Position numbers and translations under genes: made by a program. DNA of 64,000 nucleotides. Origin: an uncultured Eubacteriales bacterium (lineage in GTDB: Bacteria > Bacillota > Clostridia > Oscillospirales > Oscillospiraceae). This document shows positions 40,925 to 54,243 of the stretch, one piece after another. The notes under the pieces were generated by a model. The model was not told the DNA's origin. It worked only from the letters and a program-made list of their open reading frames with translations, and searched no databases. The stretch lies in the NCBI GenBank assembly GCA_900544295.1, contig UQUO01000005.1, forward strand, positions 62,001 through 126,000, given 5' to 3'. How positions within the stretch are numbered: position 1 is the stretch's first letter; every line of letters starts with the position of its first letter.

Positions 40925-43495
40925 CTATTTCCCATCCTTATACCCGCACACGGCGCGGTTTGACACGGCGTCGAGCCAGCAGCGCAGGCCCTTCGGCTCC
41001 GTCACGCGGAACATATGGGCAAGCTCCGGCATGTTCGGGCATATCTCCGGAAACTTGTCTGGAAGCTCATCAAGCAGCTCCGGGCGGTAGCTGAGGGTGC
41101 GGCGGTCGTTCCATATGGCGCAGTAGAAGATCTCCGCCTCTACGAGGTCCTGGAACATGTGGCTGCCGTAGCTCAGCTCCGGCATGTAGCCCGCCCTGTC
41201 GTCCGACACCTCGCAGACCCCGGCAAAGCCCGAAATGTCCGCAAAACTGCACGGCACGCCCAGCTCCGGAGAGCTGGTGCCGAGCCTGCCCGGCGCGAGC
41301 AGGAGGATTTTCTTGTCCTTGCCCTTATAATAGCGGTTTATAAGCCCCACAGCTGTGGCGGCCATTCGTTTTTTGGAATAGGGATATTCGTAGTACGCCT
41401 TGGCGTCTATTTGGATAACGACGTCGATGTCCGTCACCGTGGACATGCCCATGGAGGAGTCGTCCAGGCTGAAGAAGGTGTCCTCCTCCGGTAGCTCCGG
41501 CACCACCACCTTGCCGCCCGGCTGGCCAACGTATAGCGGGCGGCATTGGAGCAGGTTTATGACAAAATCGCCGTATTCGTCCGTGTTGACGGCGTATTCG
41601 ATGTCAACCGGCGTGCCGTAGACGTTTTCCAGCGTCTTGAGCAGGGACTGCATGATTTGCGGGAAGCGCGTGCGCTCCAGCAGGCCCTGGCAGCTTATGA
41701 ACCAGACCTCGTCGCGGATGCCTATTTCACGCAGGGAGGCTTCGGCCTCATAGTCGCGCTCGAACATCAGGTCGTGAAACCAGTCGGGCAGGAAGTGGTG
41801 GACGACGTCCATGCTTACGCTGCGGAAGGCCTGGCGTTCGCGGTCGATGACGTCCACGTTGTGCTGGGAGAAGCGGTGCATATCCGCGACATTTGCGTGA
41901 GTGCGCGCAGCCGGGCGGTCGAGGTTTACGAGCCGCGGGTAGTCGTCCTCCGTCCTGTCCACCGCCTTGGTGCCGAGGCCGACGACAAGGCGAAGCATGC
42001 CCGCCGTGGGGTCGGCGTCGTGGCTGGTCTTGTAAAGGCAGCGGCTGTAACCCACGCCCGCGACTCCGGGCAGGTAGTACGGCCCGGCCCAGGAACCTGA
42101 GACGCGCTGGACGAGGATGGACATCTGCTCGTCCTTCTTCTCCAGCCCGCGCTGGAGGCGGTATTCCAGGGCGGAAATGTCCATTGTGCTGGCGTAGACC
42201 TTGCGCACTGCGTCTTCAAAGGCGGCCAGGCGCTTTTCCAGCGGCCCGAAGTTCACGCAGAACACGGACTCATACTTCCCCGCAAAGGCGTTGCCGAAGC
42301 CGTCCTCAAGAAAGCTCGAAGAGCGTACTATGATGGGGCTCTGCCCGTAGTACGAGAGCATGGCCTTGAACTGTTCGCGTATGTTCTCCGGGAAGCTGCC
42401 GGAGAGCAGGGCCTGCTTGAGCTCCTCCGCCTTGGCAAAGTAGCCCTCTTCAGTGCGCTGCTCTATGCGGGTCTTCCAGCAGTTGTTGCTGACGATGTAT
42501 GTGTAAAAGACATCGGAGCCTATATAGAATGAGTCATGCGGCTCGTTGTGCTCGCGGAAGTCCGGCAGGCAGACGTCGGCTATTTTGCGGGCCAGCAGCA
42601 TGCCGCAGGCTTTGCCGCCTATGGCGCCGCTGCCTATCATGCGGTCGCGCAGGGAGAAATAGTCCTTCGGCTCGAACAGCTGGTGGATGAGCTTTTGGAC
42701 GTGAGGGTCCTTGGACATCATGCTCTCAAGGATCTTGCGCTCAGTCTCGTCCCGGAACTTGCCCCGGCCGAATTCCAGCTTGGCCAGGGCGAAAAAGCGG
42801 TCGTGGCTGTCCAGGTTCTGGTCCTGCGTGTGGGCCGAGATGTCGTCCAGCAGCTTGTAGTAGCGGCTGAGGGCAACGCCGCCGTCCAGGGGCTTGAACG
42901 GGCCTCCGCTGCGGCTGACGTGCGGCAGGTAGATGTTGACGGACTCGCGGTCCATCGCCTTGAGCGTGTGTATGTACACAGCGCTGTCGCTGGTGTATAC
43001 GTCTATCAGCACCTGTGTCGTGTCGCGGATGCTGGCCATTGTCTCAAACGAGTGACGCCCGCGTATGACCGGGAAATAGGCCACAGTGTTCAGCTCATAG
43101 AGGTAGGGACAGGTGACGCGGAAGAAATTGCCCATCATCTGGTCCGTGTGCCAGGCGACCTGAAGCTCTGACAGGCAGTCGAAAATGTAAAATGCGCCCT
43201 CCCCTTCCTCGGTTATGCGGTTGTAGATGTTAACGGTGAAGGGCTCAAATCCCTGCATGGGGTCGAACTCAAATACCTTCAAGCCCGGTCCGGGGCTGAA
43301 CATACTCTCATGCCGCGTGTAGTGCATGTAAATAAGGTTGCGTCCATCCTTCATCGCCTGCCTTGCGAAAGCCTCCGCAAACAGGCGGTATTCATCCAGT
43401 CCCGACACCTGCCAGACCACGTTGTCGCCCATGCGGATGTAGTCGAACACCTCGTCCACACCGGGATATCCGCTCGGTATCCTCTCAAAAGCCAC
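40925..43495 (-). CDS. PEP-synthase/PPDK ATP-binding-domain protein with degenerate KaiC-like N-terminus
   Basis: 856 residues. The N-terminal part (about 1-210) starts SGYPGVDEVFDYIRMGDNVVWQVSG, shaped like a KaiC/RecA-type domain, but the P-loop GxxGxGKT is missing. From about 270 it has the PEP synthase/pyruvate phosphate dikinase ATP-binding domain: GSGAIGGKACGMLLARK, PIIVRSSSFLEDGFGNAFAGKYESV and, later, INLLQCRPLYV. The phosphohistidine and PEP-binding domains of true PPDK are not seen. So it may phosphorylate another partner or act as a regulator. GTG start at 43495 after AAAGGGAGG. Confidence 0.8.
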   Translation of the reverse strand: MAFERIPSGYPGVDEVFDYIRMGDNVVWQVSGLDEYRLFAEAFARQAMKDGRNLIYMHYTRHESMFSPGPGLKVFEFDPMQGFEPFTVNIYNRITEEGEGAFYIFDCLSELQVAWHTDQMMGNFFRVTCPYLYELNTVAYFPVIRGRHSFETMASIRDTTQVLIDVYTSDSAVYIHTLKAMDRESVNIYLPHVSRSGGPFKPLDGGVALSRYYKLLDDISAHTQDQNLDSHDRFFALAKLEFGRGKFRDETERKILESMMSKDPHVQKLIHQLFEPKDYFSLRDRMIGSGAIGGKACGMLLARKIADVCLPDFREHNEPHDSFYIGSDVFYTYIVSNNCWKTRIEQRTEEGYFAKAEELKQALLSGSFPENIREQFKAMLSYYGQSPIIVRSSSFLEDGFGNAFAGKYESVFCVNFGPLEKRLAAFEDAVRKVYASTMDISALEYRLQRGLEKKDEQMSILVQRVSGSWAGPYYLPGVAGVGYSRCLYKTSHDADPTAGMLRLVVGLGTKAVDRTEDDYPRLVNLDRPAARTHANVADMHRFSQHNVDVIDRERQAFRSVSMDVVHHFLPDWFHDLMFERDYEAEASLREIGIRDEVWFISCQGLLERTRFPQIMQSLLKTLENVYGTPVDIEYAVNTDEYGDFVINLLQCRPLYVGQPGGKVVVPELPEEDTFFSLDDSSMGMSTVTDIDVVIQIDAKAYYEYPYSKKRMAATAVGLINRYYKGKDKKILLLAPGRLGTSSPELGVPCSFADISGFAGVCEVSDDRAGYMPELSYGSHMFQDLVEAEIFYCAIWNDRRTLSYRPELLDELPDKFPEICPNMPELAHMFRVTEPKGLRCWLDAVSNRAVCGYKDGK

Positions 43496-43595
43496 GTTCT
43501 CGCCTCCCTTTTTGTCTGCTTTGCATATATTCTACTATATACCCGCCCGAATTTCACCACATTTTTTACATTTTTTCGCCGCGCCGCCAAAAAAA

Positions 43596-43619
43596 GGCCC
43601 CGCGCCTGCGCGCGGGGCC
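43596..43619 (-). terminator. Terminator of the zinc-ribbon/lipoprotein operon
   Basis: GGCCCCGCGC (43596-43605) and GCGCGGGGCC (43610-43619) with a 4-base loop; on the minus strand TTTTTTT follows. It ends the five-gene operon. Confidence 0.9.
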
Positions 43620-43664
43620 CGGAGGGGATGGGCCAAAGGCCGCTTGGAGGGGTCGGCTCTTTGG

Positions 43665-44420
43665 TCAGGAGTATTTTTCGCCTATGTAGATGCCCATGTT
43701 TCCGCCCTGGCAGACCATCTCGAACATCGCGCCGCCGCTGTTGAAGGCGCGGACGGCGTAACGCCCGCCGGACGCGGTCTGGTCGTCTATCGTCTCGTCC
43801 ACCGTGAAGCCCGCGGCCCTGACGTCGGCGTAGTAGAGCTTGCCCTGCTCCACCGTGACTCCGGCGTAGTAGACGGCCCAGTTGCTGCCGCCGCGGTTCT
43901 CGACGCGGCTGAGGGCGCCGACGCCCGGCTCGGGGATAAAGGCGGCGTACCCCGTCCCGGGGAAGCTGAGTTCATCGGTTTGGAGGTCGTCCCCGCCGAT
44001 GTTTATGACGTCGTCCCAGTCCGTGCCGCTTATCACGCCGCCGGACGGCGTCACGGCCGCCGGGCTCTCCCTGCCGCCGAACACGCCCGCCAGCCAGAGC
44101 ACTATCACGACGGCGATCAACGTTACGGCGGCGATGGCGGCTATGATGATAGCGTTCCTGCCTGCTCCGGCCTTCTTTGCGGGCTTTTCTGGCCGCGCGG
44201 GCCTCTGGCCCGCCGTCTGCGCCGCGCCGCCGTCACGCTGGGGCGCGCCGCACTTGGGGCAGAAGGCCGTGCCCGGCCTGAGCTGAGCTCCGCATCTCGC
44301 GCAGAAGGCCGCGGCCTCCTGCTCCTGCGGGGCGGGCTCCACATACTTGGCGCCGCACTCGCAGCAGAACAGCTCTCCGTCCTGTAGCTCCGCGCCGCAT
44401 TTGGGGCACATCCTTGACAT
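43665..44420 (-). CDS. Double zinc-ribbon membrane protein, unknown function
   Basis: 251 residues. Two zinc ribbons lie at the N-terminus (CPKCG...CCECG and CARCG...CPKCG, residues 5-60), then a basic linker, one membrane helix (about 90-112) and an outer domain (about 125-251). The ribbons would be in the cytoplasm and the rest outside. The outer domain reads like a small beta-rich fold with no motif that I know. ATG 44420 follows AAGGAGGTAAGACG. Last of five genes. Confidence 0.75.
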   Translation of the reverse strand: MSRMCPKCGAELQDGELFCCECGAKYVEPAPQEQEAAAFCARCGAQLRPGTAFCPKCGAPQRDGGAAQTAGQRPARPEKPAKKAGAGRNAIIIAAIAAVTLIAVVIVLWLAGVFGGRESPAAVTPSGGVISGTDWDDVINIGGDDLQTDELSFPGTGYAAFIPEPGVGALSRVENRGGSNWAVYYAGVTVEQGKLYYADVRAAGFTVDETIDDQTASGGRYAVRAFNSGGAMFEMVCQGGNMGIYIGEKYS

Positions 44421-44432
44421 CGTCTTACCTCC

Positions 44433-45761
44433 TTAATTTGTGAGCGGCAGCAGCCCCAGCGCCGTTGCGAGGCCGCAGTTGAGCACATAGCAGCCTCCGC
44501 TGCCGTCCCCGTAGCCGTTCTGTATGTAGTCCAGCCACTCCTGCTGGGTCTTGTAGGTCACTATGCTGTCCACGTTTTCGCCGTCCAGGGGCAGGATGGT
44601 CGTCTCGATGAGGTAATACTCGCCCGTGTTGGGCCAGGCCTCCACCGCCACCTGCGCGTGGCCGGGCGGGAAGATGAGAAAGACGTTCATGCCCGCCGAT
44701 TGCAGCGCGCTGGCGATGGTCAGCGAGGTCTCGATGCACACGCCGCTCTTGCTCGAGAGCGTGTCGTCCGGCAGCTGCACGCGCTGGAGCATCTTGTCCC
44801 CGCTCCGGCTCATGGAATACCAGGCGTTGTTGTAGCGCACGCCCATCTCGCTCATAGCGCCCTGCAGGGCCAGGGCCTGGTAATAGGTGTTCAGCTCGAT
44901 GTTGCTGCCAAAGAGGCCGGAGTCCTGATAGCCCTGCATCATGTCGAACTGCCCGCCCGTGTAGCCGGTAATGAAGTCCACCGCGTTGCGCTTCAGCTCC
45001 AGCACGCCCGGCGACTCCGGCGTGAGGAAGGAGAGGTAGTAGTCCCAGCTGGACACGCCCAGCACGGGGTCGTAGTTTATCATGTCGAACTTGCTCATTA
45101 TCTGGATGGGCAGGGTGTCCTGTATGACGGGCTTGCCGCTGTCGATGTCCGTCACGGAGAAGACTATCTGCGCCTGCTTGGCCGAGCCGAGGCTCAGCTC
45201 TCCCGTCAGCACGGGCGGGTGGATGTAAAACTGCGTCAGCTGGCTGCCCAGGGTGAATTTCTGCTCGTACACCTGCGTGAAGCCCGGCACCTCCGCCCTT
45301 ATCATCACGTCCCGCTCCCCGCCCTCGCTGGTGGCGCGCACGAGGAGGATGTAGTCCGTAGTGTTGTAGAGCGAGGGGTAGATGGAGTCCACGGCCTCGT
45401 AGTCTATCTCTATCTCGGGCTCGCGGGACATGTAGCTGTAGCTCACGGCCGGAAGCTCGCCCGCGGGGCGCAGGCTCTCGATGTAGGGCAGGCCCCAATA
45501 CCAGCCCGCCGCGCCCAGGCCGCCCAGCAGCACGAGCACGATGAGCGCCGTCACGAGCCGCCTCAGCCCGCGCCTCGGCCGCCGCTCCTTGACGGCGGCC
45601 GGCGCAGAGGGCTGTTCAGCGACTGGCGCCGCGGCGGGTTCCGGGATGGGTTCTGCTATCGGCTCCGCGACCGGCTCGGGGTGGCGCACCTCGGCGCCGC
45701 ACTGGGGGCAGAAGCTCTTGCCCTCGCGGAGCGGAGCGCCGCATTTGCCGCAATGCTTCAC
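44433..45761 (-). CDS. Zinc-ribbon membrane protein with transglutaminase-like outer domain
   Basis: 442 residues. A zinc ribbon (CGKCG...CPQCG), a Pro/Glu/Ala-rich linker, one membrane helix (about 75-97) and a large outer domain. Its last third has SKSGVCIETSLTIASALQSAG and, later, PPGHAQVAVEAW, the Cys and His pattern of transglutaminase-like cysteine enzymes, with an acidic residue after. I start at GTG 45761 (spaced 8 bases from GAGGGGG); a GTG at 45779 overlapping the preceding stop is possible. Enzyme activity is inferred from these motifs only. Confidence 0.7.
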   Translation of the reverse strand: MKHCGKCGAPLREGKSFCPQCGAEVRHPEPVAEPIAEPIPEPAAAPVAEQPSAPAAVKERRPRRGLRRLVTALIVLVLLGGLGAAGWYWGLPYIESLRPAGELPAVSYSYMSREPEIEIDYEAVDSIYPSLYNTTDYILLVRATSEGGERDVMIRAEVPGFTQVYEQKFTLGSQLTQFYIHPPVLTGELSLGSAKQAQIVFSVTDIDSGKPVIQDTLPIQIMSKFDMINYDPVLGVSSWDYYLSFLTPESPGVLELKRNAVDFITGYTGGQFDMMQGYQDSGLFGSNIELNTYYQALALQGAMSEMGVRYNNAWYSMSRSGDKMLQRVQLPDDTLSSKSGVCIETSLTIASALQSAGMNVFLIFPPGHAQVAVEAWPNTGEYYLIETTILPLDGENVDSIVTYKTQQEWLDYIQNGYGDGSGGCYVLNCGLATALGLLPLTN

Positions 45762-45775
45762 AACGCCGCACCCCC

Positions 45776-46636
45776 TCACATCGCCCGGAGCAGCGCGGCG
45801 CAGTTTTCCGCCAGCTCCGTGCCCAGCTCGCCGACCCAGCCGCCCAGGCGCTCGCCCACCTTCTCGTACTGGAGGTTGAAGTCCCGCGTCAGCATGACGC
45901 TGTAGTCGTAGTTCTCCTTCTCCACCCGCACGAGCATATAGATGCCCGCGGCGAGGCGCAGGGGGTCGTTCAGCTGCACGCCTATGTACTGCTCGTTCAG
46001 GATGGCCATGAAGTGGGAGAGGCGGCTGATGTACAGCTTGTAGGTCTCGGCCATGAAGGCCGGGCAGTCCAGCTGCGACATGGCCGTGCTCGCCTCGTCC
46101 ACGGCGTAGTAGAGGTCGTAGATCCTGTCCTTGTCCGTGTCGTAGGCAGAGGCGTCAAAGGAGGACAGGGGCTGCGCGACCTCGTTAAAGGCGAAGTAGA
46201 AGTCCATGATGTCCGCCATATCCTCCAGCGCGCTCTCCACCTCGGAGAAATACTTCGCCGCCGCCTCGTAGGTGAGGTCAACGCTCTCCTGCCCGCAGGG
46301 GCGCAGGGACGAGGCCCAGGCGGAGTAAGCCGCGACCGTCTCGAGATAGCCCGCCAGCTCCGCCTGCTTCTGCCTGACCTCCTCGGTTTTGTCCTCGGGG
46401 ACGTAGGTCTCGCCGTTCTGGCGGGCGGCGTCGTTTTCCTCTATGTTCTTTTCGGAATTTGTGACCTGCCATTCAATTATGGCGTTGACGCTGCCTATCA
46501 TCTGCGCCGTAGAGGCGACGCGGTCCCTGACGCCCTCGACGTTCGCCCGCTCGGCGCTGTACCCGGCGGGCGCGGCGGAGGCGCAGCCCGTCAGCAGCAG
46601 GCAGAGTATCATCGCCGCAGCTGTGACTCGTTTCAC
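45776..46636 (-). CDS. Lipoprotein, unknown function (helical)
   Basis: 286 residues with lipobox LTGC (Cys at about 18). The rest is mostly helical, with several heptad-like stretches (about 30-120) and no motif that I recognise. GTG start at 46636 after GAGGTGGAAT; the frame extends upstream into the previous gene but without a ribosome site. It lies between two zinc-ribbon proteins of the same operon, so all are likely parts of one envelope complex or pathway. Confidence 0.7.
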   Translation of the reverse strand: MKRVTAAAMILCLLLTGCASAAPAGYSAERANVEGVRDRVASTAQMIGSVNAIIEWQVTNSEKNIEENDAARQNGETYVPEDKTEEVRQKQAELAGYLETVAAYSAWASSLRPCGQESVDLTYEAAAKYFSEVESALEDMADIMDFYFAFNEVAQPLSSFDASAYDTDKDRIYDLYYAVDEASTAMSQLDCPAFMAETYKLYISRLSHFMAILNEQYIGVQLNDPLRLAAGIYMLVRVEKENYDYSVMLTRDFNLQYEKVGERLGGWVGELGTELAENCAALLRAM

Positions 46637-46647
46637 ATTCCACCTCG

Positions 46648-48114
46648 CTATGTATAGAGCTCCTGCCAGTTTGTCGGAACGTTCAGGGAGTCGTTCGTGA
46701 CATAGATGTCGCCCGAGTCCGTCTCGTAGACGTGGTCGTAATACGTTGGCACCTTGACGGTGCTGCCGTCGGAAGTCGTGTAGTCGTCGCGGTCGTAGAT
46801 GTAGTCGCTCCACATGTCCGTGACCCGGTCGTTCGTGTCCGAGCTGCTGCTGTAGTCGTTCATGAGCTGGCTCTGTATCTCCGTCGCCGCCTGTATCTGG
46901 TTCGTGAGCTGCTGCGCCAGGAGGTTCTCGATGTAGGCGCGGTACTGCTCCACGAGGTAGTAGAACTCCGGCGATACGCTGCTGTTGGACACGAAGGTCA
47001 GAAACTCGTTCTGCATCGACGTGAGCGCCTGCTCGCTCTCGGCCGTGAAGATATAGGTGAAGGGCACGCACCAGTATATCTCGTTCACCGTGATGGAGCT
47101 GTTCTGCACCACCCACGAGGTCTGGTAGGCCCAGACCAGCGTGAACACTTCGATGTACTCCGTCTGCCCGCTCTGCGTCGTGACCGCGTACCTGTTGTCC
47201 ACCACCGTGCTCTCATAGCCGACGAGGTTCGCGCTCATGCCCAGGTTCGCCAGGGACTGCACCAGCGAATAGCCCGTCTGATAGGCGTGCTGCTCCGCGG
47301 TGGATTTGAGCGCGCTGAGGCTCTGCGAATCTATGCTGCTCGAGCTCAGCTTCTGCGCGCCCGTACAGCCTATGCCCGAGAGCATCATCTCGACAAACTG
47401 CTCCGCCGTGCGGTACTGCCGGTGTATCCTGTAGGTCGTCGGGTCGGTCTCGTTCTCGCCGAGGGAGTTGAAGATGCTGTCCGTCTGGTAGTAGCTCATG
47501 GTGCTGATGAGCTGGAAGCTGCGCTGCCCGTCGGGCGAGACGGCGCTCAGCTGCGTCATGCCGGGATAGTTGCCGTAGCTGCTCCACTGCACCTGCTCCG
47601 ACACCTGCCAGTCGTCCGGCGCCGTTATCCGGCCCACGACCATGTTGAGGCCCGAGTCCGTCAGCCGGCTCACGCGCATGAAGGTGCCGCGCTGCCGCAG
47701 TTCGGCCTCGCTTAGCGTGCCTCCGCCGCTGTCCGGCTGCGGCTGGGATGTGGCCGGCGCCGTGCCGGGCTTGGAGGCGCCGCCGGCTCCACTGCCGCTG
47801 TCGCCGTCCTGGGGCGTGCCTGACTGGCCCTGCCAGGTCGGCGCAGGCTCGCTGCCGCGCCCGTCCCTGTTACCCAATGTCACGCTCAGCACCACGACCA
47901 GCACGACCACGACAAGGCCGATCGCGCATGCTATGAGCGCGCGCTTGCTGCCGACCTTGCGGCGCCATCTCGCCTTCACCTCGGCGCTGGCTGCGGCCCA
48001 GATCTCGCTGCCGCTCAGCCTGCTCCGCTTCGGGCTGCTCACCGGAGCGCCGCATTTCGTACAGAATGCCGCCCCGTCGGGCAGCTGCGCCCCGCATTTC
48101 GTACAGAAGCTCAT
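46648..48114 (-). CDS. Zinc-ribbon membrane protein with large outer domain
   Basis: 488 residues. A zinc ribbon (CTKCG...CTKCG, residues 4-23), one membrane helix (about 60-82), a low-complexity Gly/Ser/Pro linker (85-130) and a 350-residue outer domain rich in Tyr, Ser and Gln, ending in YETDSGDIYVTNDSL. I recognise no family. I start at ATG 48114, next to the preceding stop and after AAGGGTG; a GTG at 48123 is in frame. Confidence 0.72.
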   Translation of the reverse strand: MSFCTKCGAQLPDGAAFCTKCGAPVSSPKRSRLSGSEIWAAASAEVKARWRRKVGSKRALIACAIGLVVVVLVVVLSVTLGNRDGRGSEPAPTWQGQSGTPQDGDSGSGAGGASKPGTAPATSQPQPDSGGGTLSEAELRQRGTFMRVSRLTDSGLNMVVGRITAPDDWQVSEQVQWSSYGNYPGMTQLSAVSPDGQRSFQLISTMSYYQTDSIFNSLGENETDPTTYRIHRQYRTAEQFVEMMLSGIGCTGAQKLSSSSIDSQSLSALKSTAEQHAYQTGYSLVQSLANLGMSANLVGYESTVVDNRYAVTTQSGQTEYIEVFTLVWAYQTSWVVQNSSITVNEIYWCVPFTYIFTAESEQALTSMQNEFLTFVSNSSVSPEFYYLVEQYRAYIENLLAQQLTNQIQAATEIQSQLMNDYSSSSDTNDRVTDMWSDYIYDRDDYTTSDGSTVKVPTYYDHVYETDSGDIYVTNDSLNVPTNWQELYT

Positions 48115-48115
48115 A

Positions 48116-48895
48116 TCATGCACCCTTGTAAGTGTCGATGACTATCTGCGCCATCGCGCCCCAGATGCCGCGGACGTAGAGGGCCTTGCCCGTCGCGGCG
48201 TCGAGCTCGATCTCCACGAGGCAGGGCCAGTTGTACTCGTCGGTGTAGGTGAAATAGTAGTAGTTCGGCTCGGAGACGATGCTGGAGTCGAAGGTGTAGC
48301 CGTTGCTCGAGAGCACCTGCTTGCACTCGTCTAGGGTCATGCCCACCGTCGCGCCGCCCACCTTGATTATCGAGGTCGGGTCGGTCACGGCCACGAGCTG
48401 CACCGTCCAGTTGCCGTCAAAGGGGTCGACGAAGAACATGAACAGGACGTTCGAGTAGGAGAGTATCTCCGTCTGCACCGTCCCGGCGTCCTCGTAGCCG
48501 GGCAGGCCGCAGGTGGAGTAGTCGAGGGTGCTGTCCACGGCCACCCTGTCCTGCGGCTCGCCGAAGTACTCGATGAGCTCGTCGGGAGTGAGCGGGTAGC
48601 CGGAAAAGTCCAGCCAGTCGTAGAGGAAGTCGTCCAGGTTTACCTCCTGGCCACCGCCCTCGCTGCCGCCGTCGTCCGGCGCGGCGCTGGGCTGCGCGTC
48701 GGTGGGCGCGGGCTCGGAGCTGGGCAGGGGCGCGACGGAGGGCGCCGCCGAGGGGGTCGGGGCCGGGGGCGGGGTGACTCCGCCCACGTCGCCCAGGGCG
48801 CCGCCGATCTCCTCCGGCTCAGTTTTGCCGCAGGCGCTCAGCGCGCCCAGCAGCATGACAAGCGCAAGGGCAAGTGCAAGGCTTTTCTTTTTCAT
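48116..48895 (-). CDS. Lipoprotein, first gene of the zinc-ribbon operon
   Basis: 259 residues with lipobox LSAC (Cys at about 22), a Pro/Ala/Ser-rich spacer (about 40-85) and a globular part. The globular part has LDDFLYDWLDFSGYPLTP and VGMTLDECKQVLSSNGYTF, the second reminiscent of small outer domains in which a helix-turn follows a VG-x-T-x-DE motif. ATG 48895 follows GGAGGACAAC. It heads a five-gene unit reaching 43665. Function unknown. Confidence 0.72.
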   Translation of the reverse strand: MKKKSLALALALVMLLGALSACGKTEPEEIGGALGDVGGVTPPPAPTPSAAPSVAPLPSSEPAPTDAQPSAAPDDGGSEGGGQEVNLDDFLYDWLDFSGYPLTPDELIEYFGEPQDRVAVDSTLDYSTCGLPGYEDAGTVQTEILSYSNVLFMFFVDPFDGNWTVQLVAVTDPTSIIKVGGATVGMTLDECKQVLSSNGYTFDSSIVSEPNYYYFTYTDEYNWPCLVEIELDAATGKALYVRGIWGAMAQIVIDTYKGA

Positions 48896-49165: not shown

Positions 49166-50317
49166 ATGGTTCAGAATAGATACGCGCGCTTGGCTCCGGG
49201 CCTGTTTTTCGCTGTTTACCTCCTGGCATTCCTGCTCATCGAGTTCGCCGTGAACGACAATGCCGCGATGCTGTTCGGCGCAAAGAGCGTGAACGGCATC
49301 TACTCCGCCGGGCTCTGCTGCACGGCGCTGGGCTATCTGGCCTTCCCGCTCCTGCGCAGGCTCACCAAGGGCGAGCGGGCTAGGCTGCTCGTCTTGACGC
49401 TTATCTGCCTGCTGCTCGTCGCCTCCGTCGTTCCTCTCATGCTCGCGCCCAGGCCCTTCTTCCTGCCCTGCGCCTTTCTCAGCCTGCTCTGCGCAGGGTA
49501 TATCGGCGGCATGGCGCACTACTTTCTGGCGCTCGCGCTACAAAACTCGCGCTGCACCGGCCGCGTCGTCGGCTTCGCCATTGCCGTGGAGAGCCTGCTG
49601 CAGTTTTTCATCCAGTCCTATCTTGAAACGGCCCCGCTGCTCATCGCCTCAGTCGCCGTCTGCGTGGCCGCCATCTTCTTCATCGTCCGTTTCCCGCCCG
49701 GCGACTGGGTGCTGGACAATCCCCTGCCCTACGGCGAGGGCGGCGTCCCGCCCGGGCGCAAGCTGGCCGTCGCCGGGGCGACGGTCTGCCTCATGTCGGT
49801 CATAGTCTCCCTGGACGACACCATCGCCGTCTTCCTGCACGCGGAGGGCAGCGTCGACCTCACGGGCGTCGTGCGCCTGTCTTACGCCGGGGCCGTCCTG
49901 CTGTTCGGCTTCGTCGCGGACATCAAAAAGCGGGCCTACCTCCCTTTCATGGCGGCCTGCGTGCTCGCAGGCTCCACGCTGATGTTCGCCTTTCTCGACA
50001 GCCCGGAGACCTATTCTATAAACGCCGTGCTGCTCTACATACTCTCCGCCTCGAGCGTCGTCTATCTCACCGTCGCCTTCCTGGACCTCGCGCCGAGGAC
50101 GGCGCACCCGGAGCTCTGGGCGGGCATGGGGCGCGTCCTGCGCTCCTTCTCCGTCGCGGCGACGGCGGTGCCCTTCATCCGGCTTTACGACGCGGCGGGG
50201 CACGCGGTGATGATGGCCGTGGCCTTTGCGGCGACGGTGGCGGTGCTGGTGCTCTTCTTTGCGGACGGGCAGTTCTCCCCCGGCAGGGCGGAGTCCGCGG
50301 CCCGCGCCCGGGCGTGA
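49166..50317 (+). CDS. Twelve-helix MFS-like membrane protein, sensor half of a LuxR system
   Basis: 383 residues with about twelve predicted membrane helices and little else. It resembles the membrane half of the MFS-LuxR regulators of gut Actinobacteria and Clostridia, in which twelve helices are fused to a C-terminal LuxR helix-turn-helix. Here the DNA-binding part is a separate overlapping gene. No transport motif is obvious, so a sensing role is more likely. The stop overlaps the next start as GTGA. Confidence 0.75.
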   Translation: MVQNRYARLAPGLFFAVYLLAFLLIEFAVNDNAAMLFGAKSVNGIYSAGLCCTALGYLAFPLLRRLTKGERARLLVLTLICLLLVASVVPLMLAPRPFFLPCAFLSLLCAGYIGGMAHYFLALALQNSRCTGRVVGFAIAVESLLQFFIQSYLETAPLLIASVAVCVAAIFFIVRFPPGDWVLDNPLPYGEGGVPPGRKLAVAGATVCLMSVIVSLDDTIAVFLHAEGSVDLTGVVRLSYAGAVLLFGFVADIKKRAYLPFMAACVLAGSTLMFAFLDSPETYSINAVLLYILSASSVVYLTVAFLDLAPRTAHPELWAGMGRVLRSFSVAATAVPFIRLYDAAGHAVMMAVAFAATVAVLVLFFADGQFSPGRAESAARARA

Positions 50318-50544
50318 GCGGGCTGGCCGGGTTCGCGGAGAAATACGGCCTCACGCCCCGCGAGACGGACGTCCTCGCCGCCGCGCTGTACAATGACAAG
50401 GCCCCCAAGGAGATCGCCTACGACCTTCAGATATCCGAGCGCATCGTCCAGCGCTACTTCAACTCCATTTACGAGAAGACAGGCACCCAGGGCCGCGTGG
50501 GACTGACGCTGCTCTACTCCGGCTTCACGATAAACGAAGACTGA
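50314..50544 (+). CDS. LuxR-type DNA-binding protein, small
   Basis: 76 residues, almost exactly one LuxR helix-turn-helix domain (YGLTPRETDVLAAALYNDKAPKEIAYDLQIS...VQRYFNSIYEKTG). There is no receiver or other input domain. The GTG start at 50314 overlaps the stop of the membrane protein (GTGA). Either the two act as coupled partners, or one missing or extra base has split a fusion protein. Neighbouring genes on the other strand are the xdh genes, a possible target. Confidence 0.8.
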   Translation: MSGLAGFAEKYGLTPRETDVLAAALYNDKAPKEIAYDLQISERIVQRYFNSIYEKTGTQGRVGLTLLYSGFTINED

Positions 50545-50592: not shown

Positions 50593-51078
50593 TTATTTTC
50601 CCAGGGTCTCGTCCAGGGCGCGGCGCACGGCTCGGAAGATGTTCTCGTAGCCCGTGCAGCGGCAGAGGTGTCCGGCAAGCTGCTTGCGGAGCTGCTCGTC
50701 CGTCAGGTCCTCGCCGCGGTTCAATATCTCCTGCCCCGTCAGCAGGAAGCCCGGCGTGCAGAAGCCGCACTGGATGGCGCCCTCGTCCACAAAAGCCTGC
50801 TGTATGGGCGAAAGGCTCCCGTCCGGGCCGCTCAGGCCGTCAACGGTGAGGATGTCCTTCCCGTCCGCCCATGCGGCAAGGTAGATGCAGGAGTTGTAGG
50901 TCTCCCCGTCAATGAGCACGGTGCAGGCACCGCACTCACCTACCTCGCAGCCTTTTTTCACGGAGGTGAGCGAAAAGTCGTCCCTCAAAAGGTCGGTCAG
51001 CGAGGCGCGGACGTCCACCATCTTGTCCACCGCCCTGCCGTTTATCGTGCAGCGTATGCGTTTGAACTGTCTGTCCAT
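50593..51078 (-). CDS. Molybdenum hydroxylase iron-sulfur subunit (XdhC-like)
   Basis: 161 residues with two [2Fe-2S] sites: the ferredoxin-type CEVGECGACTV...C (about 43-66) and the helical CGFC...CRC (about 102-140). It passes electrons from the molybdenum centre to the FAD subunit. The start ATG 51078 shares one base with the stop of the FAD subunit (ATGA). Last gene of the three-gene operon. The family includes xanthine, nicotinate and other hydroxylases. Confidence 0.93.
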   Translation of the reverse strand: MDRQFKRIRCTINGRAVDKMVDVRASLTDLLRDDFSLTSVKKGCEVGECGACTVLIDGETYNSCIYLAAWADGKDILTVDGLSGPDGSLSPIQQAFVDEGAIQCGFCTPGFLLTGQEILNRGEDLTDEQLRKQLAGHLCRCTGYENIFRAVRRALDETLGK

Positions 51079-51959
51079 CACAGCCTCCCTCCCGCTCTCT
51101 CGACGCTCTCGCACAGTGCGCGGAAGGCGCACTCCTCCGCCACGTGCAGGCGGAAGGCGCGGCTGGCGCGCCATGAATCGCGCGGGCTTATCTCGGCCAC
51201 GGCGGCGCGGGCAAACTCGCGTGCTGTCTCCTCCGTGCAGGGCGCGCCGGCGAAGGCGCGCTCCGTCTCCGGGCAGCGGCTGGGTACAGGTCCCGCCACG
51301 CCGTAGGCTATGCGCACGCGCTCCAGACTCCTGCCGTCCTCCGAGAGCCGGGCGTTTACGGAACAGCCCAGGGTGGAGATGTCCAGCGCCTCGCGCGTGG
51401 AATACTTGATGTAGCGCCCGAAGCAGCGCTCCCAGCTCTCGCGCGGGATGTATATCGCGGTCAGCAGCTCGTCCGGGCCCACGTCCGTCCTGCCCGGCCC
51501 GAGGTAGAATTCGGCGATGCCGAGCCGCCTTGTGCCGCCCGCGCCCGTGAGCTCCAGCTCCGCGTCGCAGGCGAAAAGGGTCGGGGCCGTGTCGGCGGAG
51601 GTGACGCCGTTGCAGATATTCCCGCCGACGGTGCCGATGTTGCGTATCTGAGGCCCGCCGACCTCGTCCGCCGCCTCGCCCAGGACGGGCATCCGCTCCC
51701 TTATAAGCGTATCGGCTGCGAGCTGTGAAAAGCTCGTGAGCGGCCCGATCTTCAGCGTCCCGTCCGGCATTTCGCAGACGCCAGCGAGCTCCGCAATGCC
51801 GCGGATGGAGATGAGCTCCGCGCCCGTGAGCTTGCCGTCCCGTATCTTCACGAGCAGGTCGGAGCCGCCCGCGATCAGCCTCGCCTCCGGGTGGGCGCGG
51901 CGGAGCTCGATCGCCTCCGCGACGGAGGCGGCCTCGTACAGTGCCGTTATATCATACAT
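51078..51959 (-). CDS. Molybdenum hydroxylase FAD subunit (XdhB-like)
   Basis: 293 residues of the CO dehydrogenase FAD-binding type. The FAD motif ARLIAGGSDLLVKIRDG (about 25-41) and the second motif IRNIGTVGGNICNG (about 106-119) are clear. It overlaps the large-subunit end by 8 bases and the iron-sulfur subunit start by one base, so translation is coupled. Confidence 0.92.
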   Translation of the reverse strand: MYDITALYEAASVAEAIELRRAHPEARLIAGGSDLLVKIRDGKLTGAELISIRGIAELAGVCEMPDGTLKIGPLTSFSQLAADTLIRERMPVLGEAADEVGGPQIRNIGTVGGNICNGVTSADTAPTLFACDAELELTGAGGTRRLGIAEFYLGPGRTDVGPDELLTAIYIPRESWERCFGRYIKYSTREALDISTLGCSVNARLSEDGRSLERVRIAYGVAGPVPSRCPETERAFAGAPCTEETAREFARAAVAEISPRDSWRASRAFRLHVAEECAFRALCESVERAGGRL

Positions 51960-54243
51960 CGGCTTTGCCTCCTTCCTGCGCCCTGAAAAGGGCTTCCGGC
52001 GTTATGGGTATGGCGTTGAAGGCCAGGCCCGTGGCCTGCAATATCGCATTGCGTATGGCCGGCGCAGGCGGGCAAGCCGGCGGCTCGCCCAGGGCCTTGG
52101 TGCCGAAGGGGCTGGTGGGCTCCGCGTTCTCGCAGAAGAGGGCCTCCATGCGCGGGTGGTCCATAAAGGTGAGCAGCTTGTAGTCGAGCAGGTTCGCGTT
52201 CAGCGGCCTGCCGGTTTTCTCGTCAAACAGAAGCTTTTCCGACAGCGCGTAGCCCAACCCCATCGACATGCCGCCGTGTACCTGCGCCTCAGCGAGCTTG
52301 GGGTTCACCAGCTTGCCGCAGTCGTGTACGTTCATAAGGCGCAGGACCTTGACCTTGCAGAGCTTCATATCCACCTCCACCTCGGCATAGGAACAGCCGA
52401 AGGAGTAGGCGTTGGACTTTATCTGTGCCGTGGCCTCGGCAGTGATGTGCCGGCTGTCCTCCATCGAGTACAGCGCCTCCGTCGCCAGCTCCGCGAGGGA
52501 CATGAGCGCCTCGCCGTCCGGCGTGCGGATCAGCTTGCCCTCCACGAGGTCGAGGTTCGAGACGGGCAGGCGCGTCAGCTTGTGGGCGTAGTTCAATATC
52601 TTCTCCCGCAGGATGCGGCCCGTCTTGCTGATGGCAAAGCCGCCCACATAGGTCTGGCGCGAGGCGTAGGCCCCGCTGCCGTAGGGGGTCACATCCGTGT
52701 CCTGCGACGAGACGACGTGAACGCTCCCGAAGGGGACGCCCACAGCGTCGGCGGCCATCTGTGCGTAAACAGTGTCGCAGCCCTGGCCTATCTCAGTCTC
52801 ACCAGTCTGCACCTGGATGGAGCCGTCCTGATTGAGCACCATGCGGCAGGACGAGGACTCCAGCGAGATGGGCCAGACGCCGGTGTTGTACCAGTAGAGC
52901 GCCATGCCCACGCCCCGGCGGATATCCCCCGTCTGCGGCTTTGAATACTCGGCGTGCAGCCGCTCAAAGTCCGTGGCCTTTGCGCCCGCCTCCATGCAGG
53001 CGCGGAAGCTGTCGCTCCAGTTGACGTTTTTGGAAAACTCGTCCTTGTAGCCCTTGGGCATGGCTATCCTGCGCCGCAGCTCCAGCGGGCTCATGCCCAG
53101 GGCCTTGGCCACGTCGTCGATGTGCGCCTCCCCGGCGAAGGTGGCCTGGGGTATGCCGTAGCCGCGCATCGCGCCCGCGGGCGGGAGGTTGGTGAAGGCG
53201 GTCCAGGCGTCGCACTCCACGTTCGGGCAGGGGTATATCTGCGGGAAGGAGTTCATCCCCTTGGCGGCGATGCCGTGCCCGTGGGAGGCGTAGGCGCCCT
53301 GATTCGACCAGCACTCCAGCTTTCGCGCGGCAAATGTGCCGTCCGGGCGCACCCAGGAAATGATGTGGCTGCGTATGGCGTGGCGGACGCGGTTGCAGTG
53401 GAAGGTCTCCTCCCGCGTACACTCTATGCGCACGGGCCTGCCGCCGAGCTGAGTGGTCAGCCAGGCGCAAAGCGGCTCATACAGCGCGTCCTGCTTGTTG
53501 CCGAAGCCGCCGCCTATGTAGGGCTTGATGATGCGCACCCGCCCCCAGGGAATGCCCAGGGCCTGGCCGACGATGCGGCGGACGATGTGCGGTATCTGTG
53601 TGGAGGTGACGACCACGACGCGGCCGCCCTCCATATAGGCCCAGCAGTTGTGATTTTCGATGTGGCAGTGCTGGACGGTGGGCGTGTCGTACCAGCCTTC
53701 GACCTTGATGAGCCCCGGCTCCTTGATGGCCGCCTCGTAGTCGCCCATCCTCACGCTGCTGTGACCGAGGACATTCCCCGGGAAAGCCTCGTGCAGCTGC
53801 GGCGCGCCCGGCTCCATTGCCTTCTGGACGTCAAGAACGAAGGACAGCGGCTCGTACTCGACCTCTATCTCTCGCAGGGCCTTCTGCGCCGTAAGCTCGT
53901 CCTGCGCGACGACCACGGCGATCTCGTCGCCCCAGAAGCGGACGTGGTCCGTGAGCAGCAGCCTGTCCGCCACGTCCTGGTGCTCCGGCTCCGTAGACCA
54001 GGGGTGGCCCGCGGTCGGGAAATAATTCTTCGGCACATCGAAGCAGGTGAAGACTGCCTCGACCCCATCCATCGCCCGCGCTTTCTCAGCATCGATGCGC
54101 TTTACCAGCGCGTGGGCCTTCTCCGCGTGAAGTATCTTTGCCGTCAGCGCCCTCCTGTCGCAGAGGTCGGCGGCGTACATGGCGCGGCCTGCGGCCTTGT
54201 CGCGCGCGTCCACGCGCGGCACGGATCTGCCAACATAGCTCAA
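51952..54243 (-). CDS. Molybdenum hydroxylase large subunit (XdhA-like)
   Basis: 763 residues. Molybdopterin-contact motifs are visible: GGGFGNKQD, GAMRGYGIPQ, GETEIGQGCDT and the catalytic-Glu region GTKALGEPPACPPAPA. Alignment by eye places it in the xanthine dehydrogenase/aldehyde oxidase family; purine hydroxylase activity is probable but not fixed by sequence. TTG start at 54243 after GGAAGGGGGAGC. It heads an operon with the FAD and iron-sulfur subunits. Confidence 0.92.
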   Translation of the reverse strand: MSYVGRSVPRVDARDKAAGRAMYAADLCDRRALTAKILHAEKAHALVKRIDAEKARAMDGVEAVFTCFDVPKNYFPTAGHPWSTEPEHQDVADRLLLTDHVRFWGDEIAVVVAQDELTAQKALREIEVEYEPLSFVLDVQKAMEPGAPQLHEAFPGNVLGHSSVRMGDYEAAIKEPGLIKVEGWYDTPTVQHCHIENHNCWAYMEGGRVVVVTSTQIPHIVRRIVGQALGIPWGRVRIIKPYIGGGFGNKQDALYEPLCAWLTTQLGGRPVRIECTREETFHCNRVRHAIRSHIISWVRPDGTFAARKLECWSNQGAYASHGHGIAAKGMNSFPQIYPCPNVECDAWTAFTNLPPAGAMRGYGIPQATFAGEAHIDDVAKALGMSPLELRRRIAMPKGYKDEFSKNVNWSDSFRACMEAGAKATDFERLHAEYSKPQTGDIRRGVGMALYWYNTGVWPISLESSSCRMVLNQDGSIQVQTGETEIGQGCDTVYAQMAADAVGVPFGSVHVVSSQDTDVTPYGSGAYASRQTYVGGFAISKTGRILREKILNYAHKLTRLPVSNLDLVEGKLIRTPDGEALMSLAELATEALYSMEDSRHITAEATAQIKSNAYSFGCSYAEVEVDMKLCKVKVLRLMNVHDCGKLVNPKLAEAQVHGGMSMGLGYALSEKLLFDEKTGRPLNANLLDYKLLTFMDHPRMEALFCENAEPTSPFGTKALGEPPACPPAPAIRNAILQATGLAFNAIPITPEALFRAQEGGKADV

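Follow-up and report, generated by a model that had tools for sequence, protein, structure and literature searches.

Membrane-anchored proteins of predicted transglutaminase fold and their helical partner in a five-gene envelope operon of an Oscillospiraceae bacterium

Introduction

Proteins of the transglutaminase-like superfamily, represented by the families Transglut_core, Transglut_core2 and DUF553 and by PNGase, factor XIII, and LapG, share a fold and a Cys-His-acid order of catalytic residues. The third residue is usually Asp, and the bacterial members are mostly hydrolases. In the LapD/LapG system, a thiol protease of transglutaminase fold lies outside the membrane, where a transmembrane protein controls or holds it (PMC3032545, PMC4359373). 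In this study, we analysed a 64,000-nucleotide stretch (the window; contig UQUO01000005.1, positions 62,001 to 126,000, assembly GCA_900544295.1) from an uncultured Eubacteriales bacterium of the Oscillospiraceae, which contains a five-gene operon (G1 to G5, Table 1) whose product G4 resembles this superfamily. An earlier interpretation of the letters without database searches, hereafter the sequence-only reading, had suggested that the five products make up a new membrane-spanning complex with cytoplasmic metal-binding ends and an outer enzymatic or cross-linking part. We regard the G4 family as a variant of the transglutaminase-like superfamily and not as a separate new kind of system. On balance, we favour the view that G3 and G4 are two halves of one envelope enzyme, probably a thiol hydrolase, and that G1, G2, and G5 are lineage-specific co-transcribed proteins.

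Results

Pairing of G3 with G4

At E<=0.001, 240 relatives of G4 were found in the protein database, of which the best 120 were listed and 23 were aligned separately with G4; the few from named organisms belong to Bacillota, e.g. Christensenellales and Lachnospiraceae. Four of the aligned relatives (P0037, P0039, P0102, and P0106) lack the zinc ribbon, and instead show an exported lipoprotein-like start and about 280 extra residues. G3 (P0003) matches this extra part, with 32% identity to P0037 over 285 aligned columns (E=9e-44) and E=7e-29 to P0102. G3 is thus homologous to the N-terminal half of the fused G4 relatives, and in other bacteria the two are domains of a single chain. The structure model of a relative indicates that G3 is all-helical.

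Using a G3 profile built from ten sequences (those of the window, L002, L059, L073, L075, P0039, P0102, P0035, P0037, and P0106), we detected G3 in each of the 12 genomes having a full-length or nearly full-length G4 relative, always in company with G4. P0039 and P0102 have a core in common with L086 and L058, and L040, L072, L074, L087, L088, and L089 lie outside the profile. The genomes came from searches of the order of G001, the window's closest relative (2/394; G001 and G228), the class (3/391; G001, G645, and G760), the family of G760 (5/23), and the order of G760 (10/188), G001 being counted as nearly full-length with a G4 interrupted by contig ends. The class search matched 13 genomes and the search in the order of G760 matched 17, of which 10 and 7, respectively, were partial and left uncounted; eight of the 10 partial class matches are frames of 1814-2056 residues, which are presumably ProA-like.

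G3 is a separate gene directly upstream of G4 in G001, G1130, G1131, and G1133, and is fused to G4 in G228, G645, G760, G1149, G1175, G1207, G1208, and G1209. The arrangement in G1130 is that of the window, a G3 lipoprotein followed by a G4 with zinc ribbon and transmembrane (TM) helix; no lipobox was seen in the separate G3 of G1131 and G1133. By eye, the fused genes of G1175, G1207, G1208, and G1209 stand amid seemingly unrelated genes, e.g. mutS/mutL-like and hydrogenase-like ones. Downstream of the fused enzyme, loci L040 (6628-7911), L058 (8858-10204), and L072 (7435-8787), from three genomes, encode a second conserved lipoprotein, in which an 'LPEGW'-type stretch recalls PsbP-like proteins, a resemblance without profile support.

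Outer domains and candidate catalytic residues of G4

The predicted structure of the outer part of G4 comprises an immunoglobulin-like (Ig-like) domain and a transglutaminase-fold domain, so that the fold of the superfamily is seen by model. The transglutaminase-like Cys-His pair noticed in the sequence-only reading is indeed there, and together with an acidic residue (Cys342, His368, and Glu386) it is invariant in 103 of 103 aligned rows, in lipoprotein and ribbon forms alike. The order of the three residues, which is that of the superfamily, holds for the sequence only, and the third is Glu, not Asp. The same C, H, E pattern also occurs in one long ProA-like frame, L048, the single locus listed from a pattern search over nine.

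No solved structure related to G4 was found by sequence search, and curated Pfam cut-offs were missed by G4 (DUF553, 19.6 bits against 20.5) and by its relative P0037 (Transglut_core2, 18.0 against 23.5). Indeed, none of the five proteins reached a curated Pfam or NCBIfam family beyond their zinc ribbons. Residues 192-373 of G4 are related to a stretch of NF058533, 'anti-phage protein ProA' (E=3.2e-13). However, this model is 1903 long and its cut-off is 1500 bits, whereas the 442-residue G4 scores 48.1 bits and, unlike ProA, is anchored, exported, and without the remaining parts of ProA. With the anti-phage profiles of PADLOC, the five proteins gave one chance-level match only (G4, E=0.08).

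Exchange of membrane anchors

After exclusion of 13 of 132 proteins as chimeric or N-terminally incomplete, 119 G4-family rows were classified by simple motifs, with P0036, P0051, and L074 set to ribbon by hand (L074 was checked). Ribbon proteins without fused G3 account for 71 of them, chains of the order ribbon-TM-G3-G4 for 17, and fused lipoproteins for 27, with the other 4 being unclear. None of the 119 is a lipoprotein without G3; the dropped chimeric record P0069 would have been one. G3 was seen beside ribbon forms without fused G3 at the genome loci, which cover a minority of these forms. Thinning of 16 near-copies left 103 rows, and on a quick tree of these, built without bootstrap and with 27 of 98 inner branches open, anchor type changed at least 6 times and fusion at least 5 times.

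Because 27 of the 119 relatives are ribbonless fused lipoproteins, the G4 family can do without a cytoplasmic ribbon, which is one of two means by which a G4-family protein is attached to the membrane. In P0120, half a zinc ribbon precedes a TM helix and a lipobox-like Cys, and this relative is possibly an intermediate of the two anchor types. The records P0069 (G1+G4), P0265 (G1+G5), and P0006 (G3+G4) are probably assembly artefacts, possibly real deletions.

Operon layout and gene structure

The five reading frames are real and form one minus-strand operon, as the sequence-only reading had it, with gaps of 1, 11, 14, and 12 bases from G1 to G5 and a strong terminator at the end (Table 1). 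Each gene is preceded by a purine-rich stretch resembling a ribosome-binding site, that of G2 being the weakest. The lipoboxes of G1 and G3 agree with the two interleaved lipoproteins proposed, and so do the three ribbon proteins with their single TM helix: Pfam Zn_Ribbon_1 scored above cut-off in G2, G4, and G5, with two stretches in G5, and a single strong TM segment is present in all three. The flank of this segment that faces the ribbon carries a net charge of +4 to +6 and the opposite flank one of -1 to 0, which by the charge rule suggests that the ribbons lie inside and the outer domains outside. The proposed cytoplasmic ribbon ends thus fit the window's proteins but are dispensable in the G4 family. 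Between the five genes and a more diverged relative copy, the ratio of nonsynonymous to synonymous substitution rates (dN/dS) is 0.17-0.50 (172 residues compared for G1, 390 for G4), indicating that all five are maintained.

Table 1. Features of the five-gene operon (positions in the window)
Feature	Coordinates	Strand	Details
G1, lipoprotein, 259 aa	48116..48895	-	lipobox LSAC (Cys22); Pro/Ser-rich linker, then conserved outer domain at about residues 88-259
G2, zinc ribbon protein, 488 aa	46648..48114	-	TM helix at residues 60-78; outer domain modelled as Mog1/PsbP-like; C-terminal tail conserved
G3, lipoprotein, 286 aa	45776..46636	-	GTG start; lipobox LTGC (Cys18)
G4, zinc ribbon protein, 442 aa	44433..45761	-	GTG start; TM helix at residues 69-87; outer part modelled as Ig-like and transglutaminase-fold domains
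G5, two zinc ribbons, 251 aa	43665..44420	-	TM helix 90-108; small outer domain
Intrinsic terminator downstream of G5	43595..43620	-	stem of 11 pairs (10 GC), then six T

Structure and distribution of G1, G2, and G5

At G4 loci, G1, G2, and G5 were found in G001 only (1/12 genomes). Several of the 12 loci are short or near contig ends, and G1 and G5 are therefore less well tested than G2. The outer domain of G2 is predicted to have a Mog1/PsbP fold, with a mean model confidence of only 72, and no PsbP, Mog1, DcrB, or LpqN profile of Pfam or NCBIfam matched it at E<=0.1; G2 differs from the Mog1/PsbP/LpqN/DcrB fold in being held by a ribbon-TM anchor and in carrying a further, conserved tail at its C-terminus. 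At E<=0.001, this domain was absent from the other 11 G4-bearing genomes; at E<=0.01, neither domain nor tail was found in 10 of these, and G760 has the tail only, on another contig (E=0.004). The domain matched 3 of 400 genomes in the family of G001 and 3 of 382 in the class, each trio including G001 and some of the matches being weak or tail-only; of the 13 genomes searched in the genus of G001, all 12 besides G001 itself lack it. In G920, a relative of it stands alone. The tail, the last ~65 residues of G2 (46651-46850, minus strand), is also C-terminal on other proteins (L090, L092, and L064), and in one of these a zinc ribbon is present and no TM helix was seen.

Neither Pfam nor NCBIfam gave a match to G1 at E<=0.1; of its 26 database relatives, 18 span 99% or more of its length and are 78-98% identical to it. 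The outer domain of G5 weakly resembles DUF6591 (E=0.066, below cut-off). G2 and G5 share an N-terminal zinc ribbon followed by a TM helix with TcaA-type envelope proteins (NF053815), but this likeness covers the ribbon-TM part only, their outer domains being different and their scores (18.4 and 20.1 bits) below the cut-off of 550.

Such ribbon-TM proteins are common in the order. A ribbon-containing profile matched 327 of 394 genomes, nearly all listed rows covering only the ribbon-to-TM part, and among the matches listed two or three lie within ~3 kb in at least five further genomes (G039, G079, G080, G197, and G212), so that clustering of this kind is by itself no sign of a complex. In the metagenome bin G001, the operon is represented by fragments of two diverged copies (L001, L002, and L041), with per-gene identities of 96-100% and 68-92%, so that the bin either is mixed or has two copies.

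Neighbouring genes

Just beyond the operon terminator, an 856-residue protein (40925-43495, minus strand) combines a PPDK ATP-binding domain (292-656) with an unassigned N-terminal part. On the other side (49166-50544, plus strand), a multi-TM protein is encoded divergently, with a LuxR-type helix-turn-helix protein after it, and the LuxR-type gene is adjoined by genes for the xanthine dehydrogenase subunits XdhC, XdhB, and XdhA (50593-54243, minus strand). L058 and L072 likewise have a TM-LuxR gene divergent from that of the fused enzyme, with TM halves that do not align.

Discussion

Like the transglutaminase-like superfamily, the G4 family combines its fold, C-terminal and seen by model, with the Cys-His-acid order. 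It differs in that no curated profile is reached, the third residue is Glu, an Ig-like domain stands N-terminal, a helical G3 partner is constant, and the anchor is either ribbon-TM or lipid. Its domain in G4 is predicted to be extracytoplasmic, as LapG is, and the LapD/LapG system has a comparable outer transglutaminase-fold unit with a transmembrane hold (PMC3032545, PMC4359373). However, no cyclic di-GMP domain was matched, the cytoplasmic part being a zinc ribbon that is dispensable in the G4 family, and none of the five proteins matched a LapG or LapD profile at E<=0.1; the resemblance is one of fold only. The sequence-only reading could not match the operon to a described system, and neither could we. 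The G4 family is undescribed as far as our searches reach: it is unnamed in Pfam and NCBIfam, and our literature search, beyond whose reach most subscription papers lay, found no study of it.

In the reading that we favour, G4 would display its Ig-like domain and transglutaminase-fold catalytic unit outside the membrane by means of its zinc-ribbon/TM anchor, and G3 would be a lipid-anchored helical bundle docking on G4 much as the two are packed in the single-chain relatives. The invariant Cys-His-Glu set would then most likely make the pair a thiol hydrolase (protease or deamidase) acting on an envelope or surface protein. On this view, the G4 family is united by its transglutaminase fold, its Cys-His-Glu set and a membrane anchor, and its members are probably thiol hydrolases of an envelope protein. 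G1, G2, and G5, perhaps substrate binders and perhaps passengers, look like local additions and not parts of a conserved new machine.

It could be argued that all five proteins belong to a single dedicated complex across the membrane, the ribbons serving as cytoplasmic sensors or docking sites. The tight operon with its single terminator points that way, as does the second copy (L002), which keeps the order G1-G2-G3-G4 at 68-92% identity per gene, while a further contig of the bin has the end of G4 with G5 after it; indirectly, so do the longest contigs listed, 153420 for a relative of G1 and one of G2 and 43872 for a relative of G1 and one of G4. The sequence-only reading had itself proposed joint conservation as the check, and in the gene neighbourhoods only G3 and G4 stay together. 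Considering that at the G4 loci G1, G2, and G5 were found in none of the other 11 genomes, that the G2 outer domain is absent from these genomes at E<=0.001 and has a relative standing alone in G920, and that ribbonless anchors are common in the G4 family, such a complex seems unlikely. An extension, by analogy, in which the G4 ribbon senses a partner or metal state and gates the Cys-His-Glu enzyme through the TM helix and G3 bundle, the enzyme cutting or joining an envelope protein presented by the Mog1/PsbP domain and tail of G2, would make the operon an inside-out surface-processing switch of Clostridia, LapD/LapG-like in working and differently built; this is improbable.

The transglutaminase-like active site agrees with the outer enzymatic part that had been proposed, but nothing in our results favours cross-linking over hydrolysis. 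A true transglutaminase that cross-links envelope or surface proteins, with G1, G2, G5, or G3 as substrates or scaffolds, would be consistent with the fold and Cys-His set of G4, and also with the tail of G2, the most conserved 60-residue stretch of that protein, which is 97% identical between the two copies with a synonymous divergence (dS) of 0.54. We regard it as quite doubtful, given the rarity of the G2 domain and tail in the other G4-bearing genomes; no Gln or Lys donor site was identified, none having been searched for. The preference for hydrolysis itself comes from general knowledge of the bacterial superfamily members, and not from data of this study. There is also a slim chance that the G4 domain is a ligand-binding module which has lost catalysis, making the G3-G4 pair a structural envelope protein, as the Glu in place of Asp and the failure to reach a curated enzyme family may hint; this fits poorly with the invariance of C, H, and E across both anchor forms and with their recurrence in the ProA-like frame L048.

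In summary, the reading of G3 and G4 as halves of one envelope enzyme shrinks a five-protein puzzle, by way of the fused relatives, to one testable protein with one candidate catalytic cysteine. If it is active, the envelope-processing enzymes known from these bacteria would gain an anchored thiol enzyme in the G4 family.
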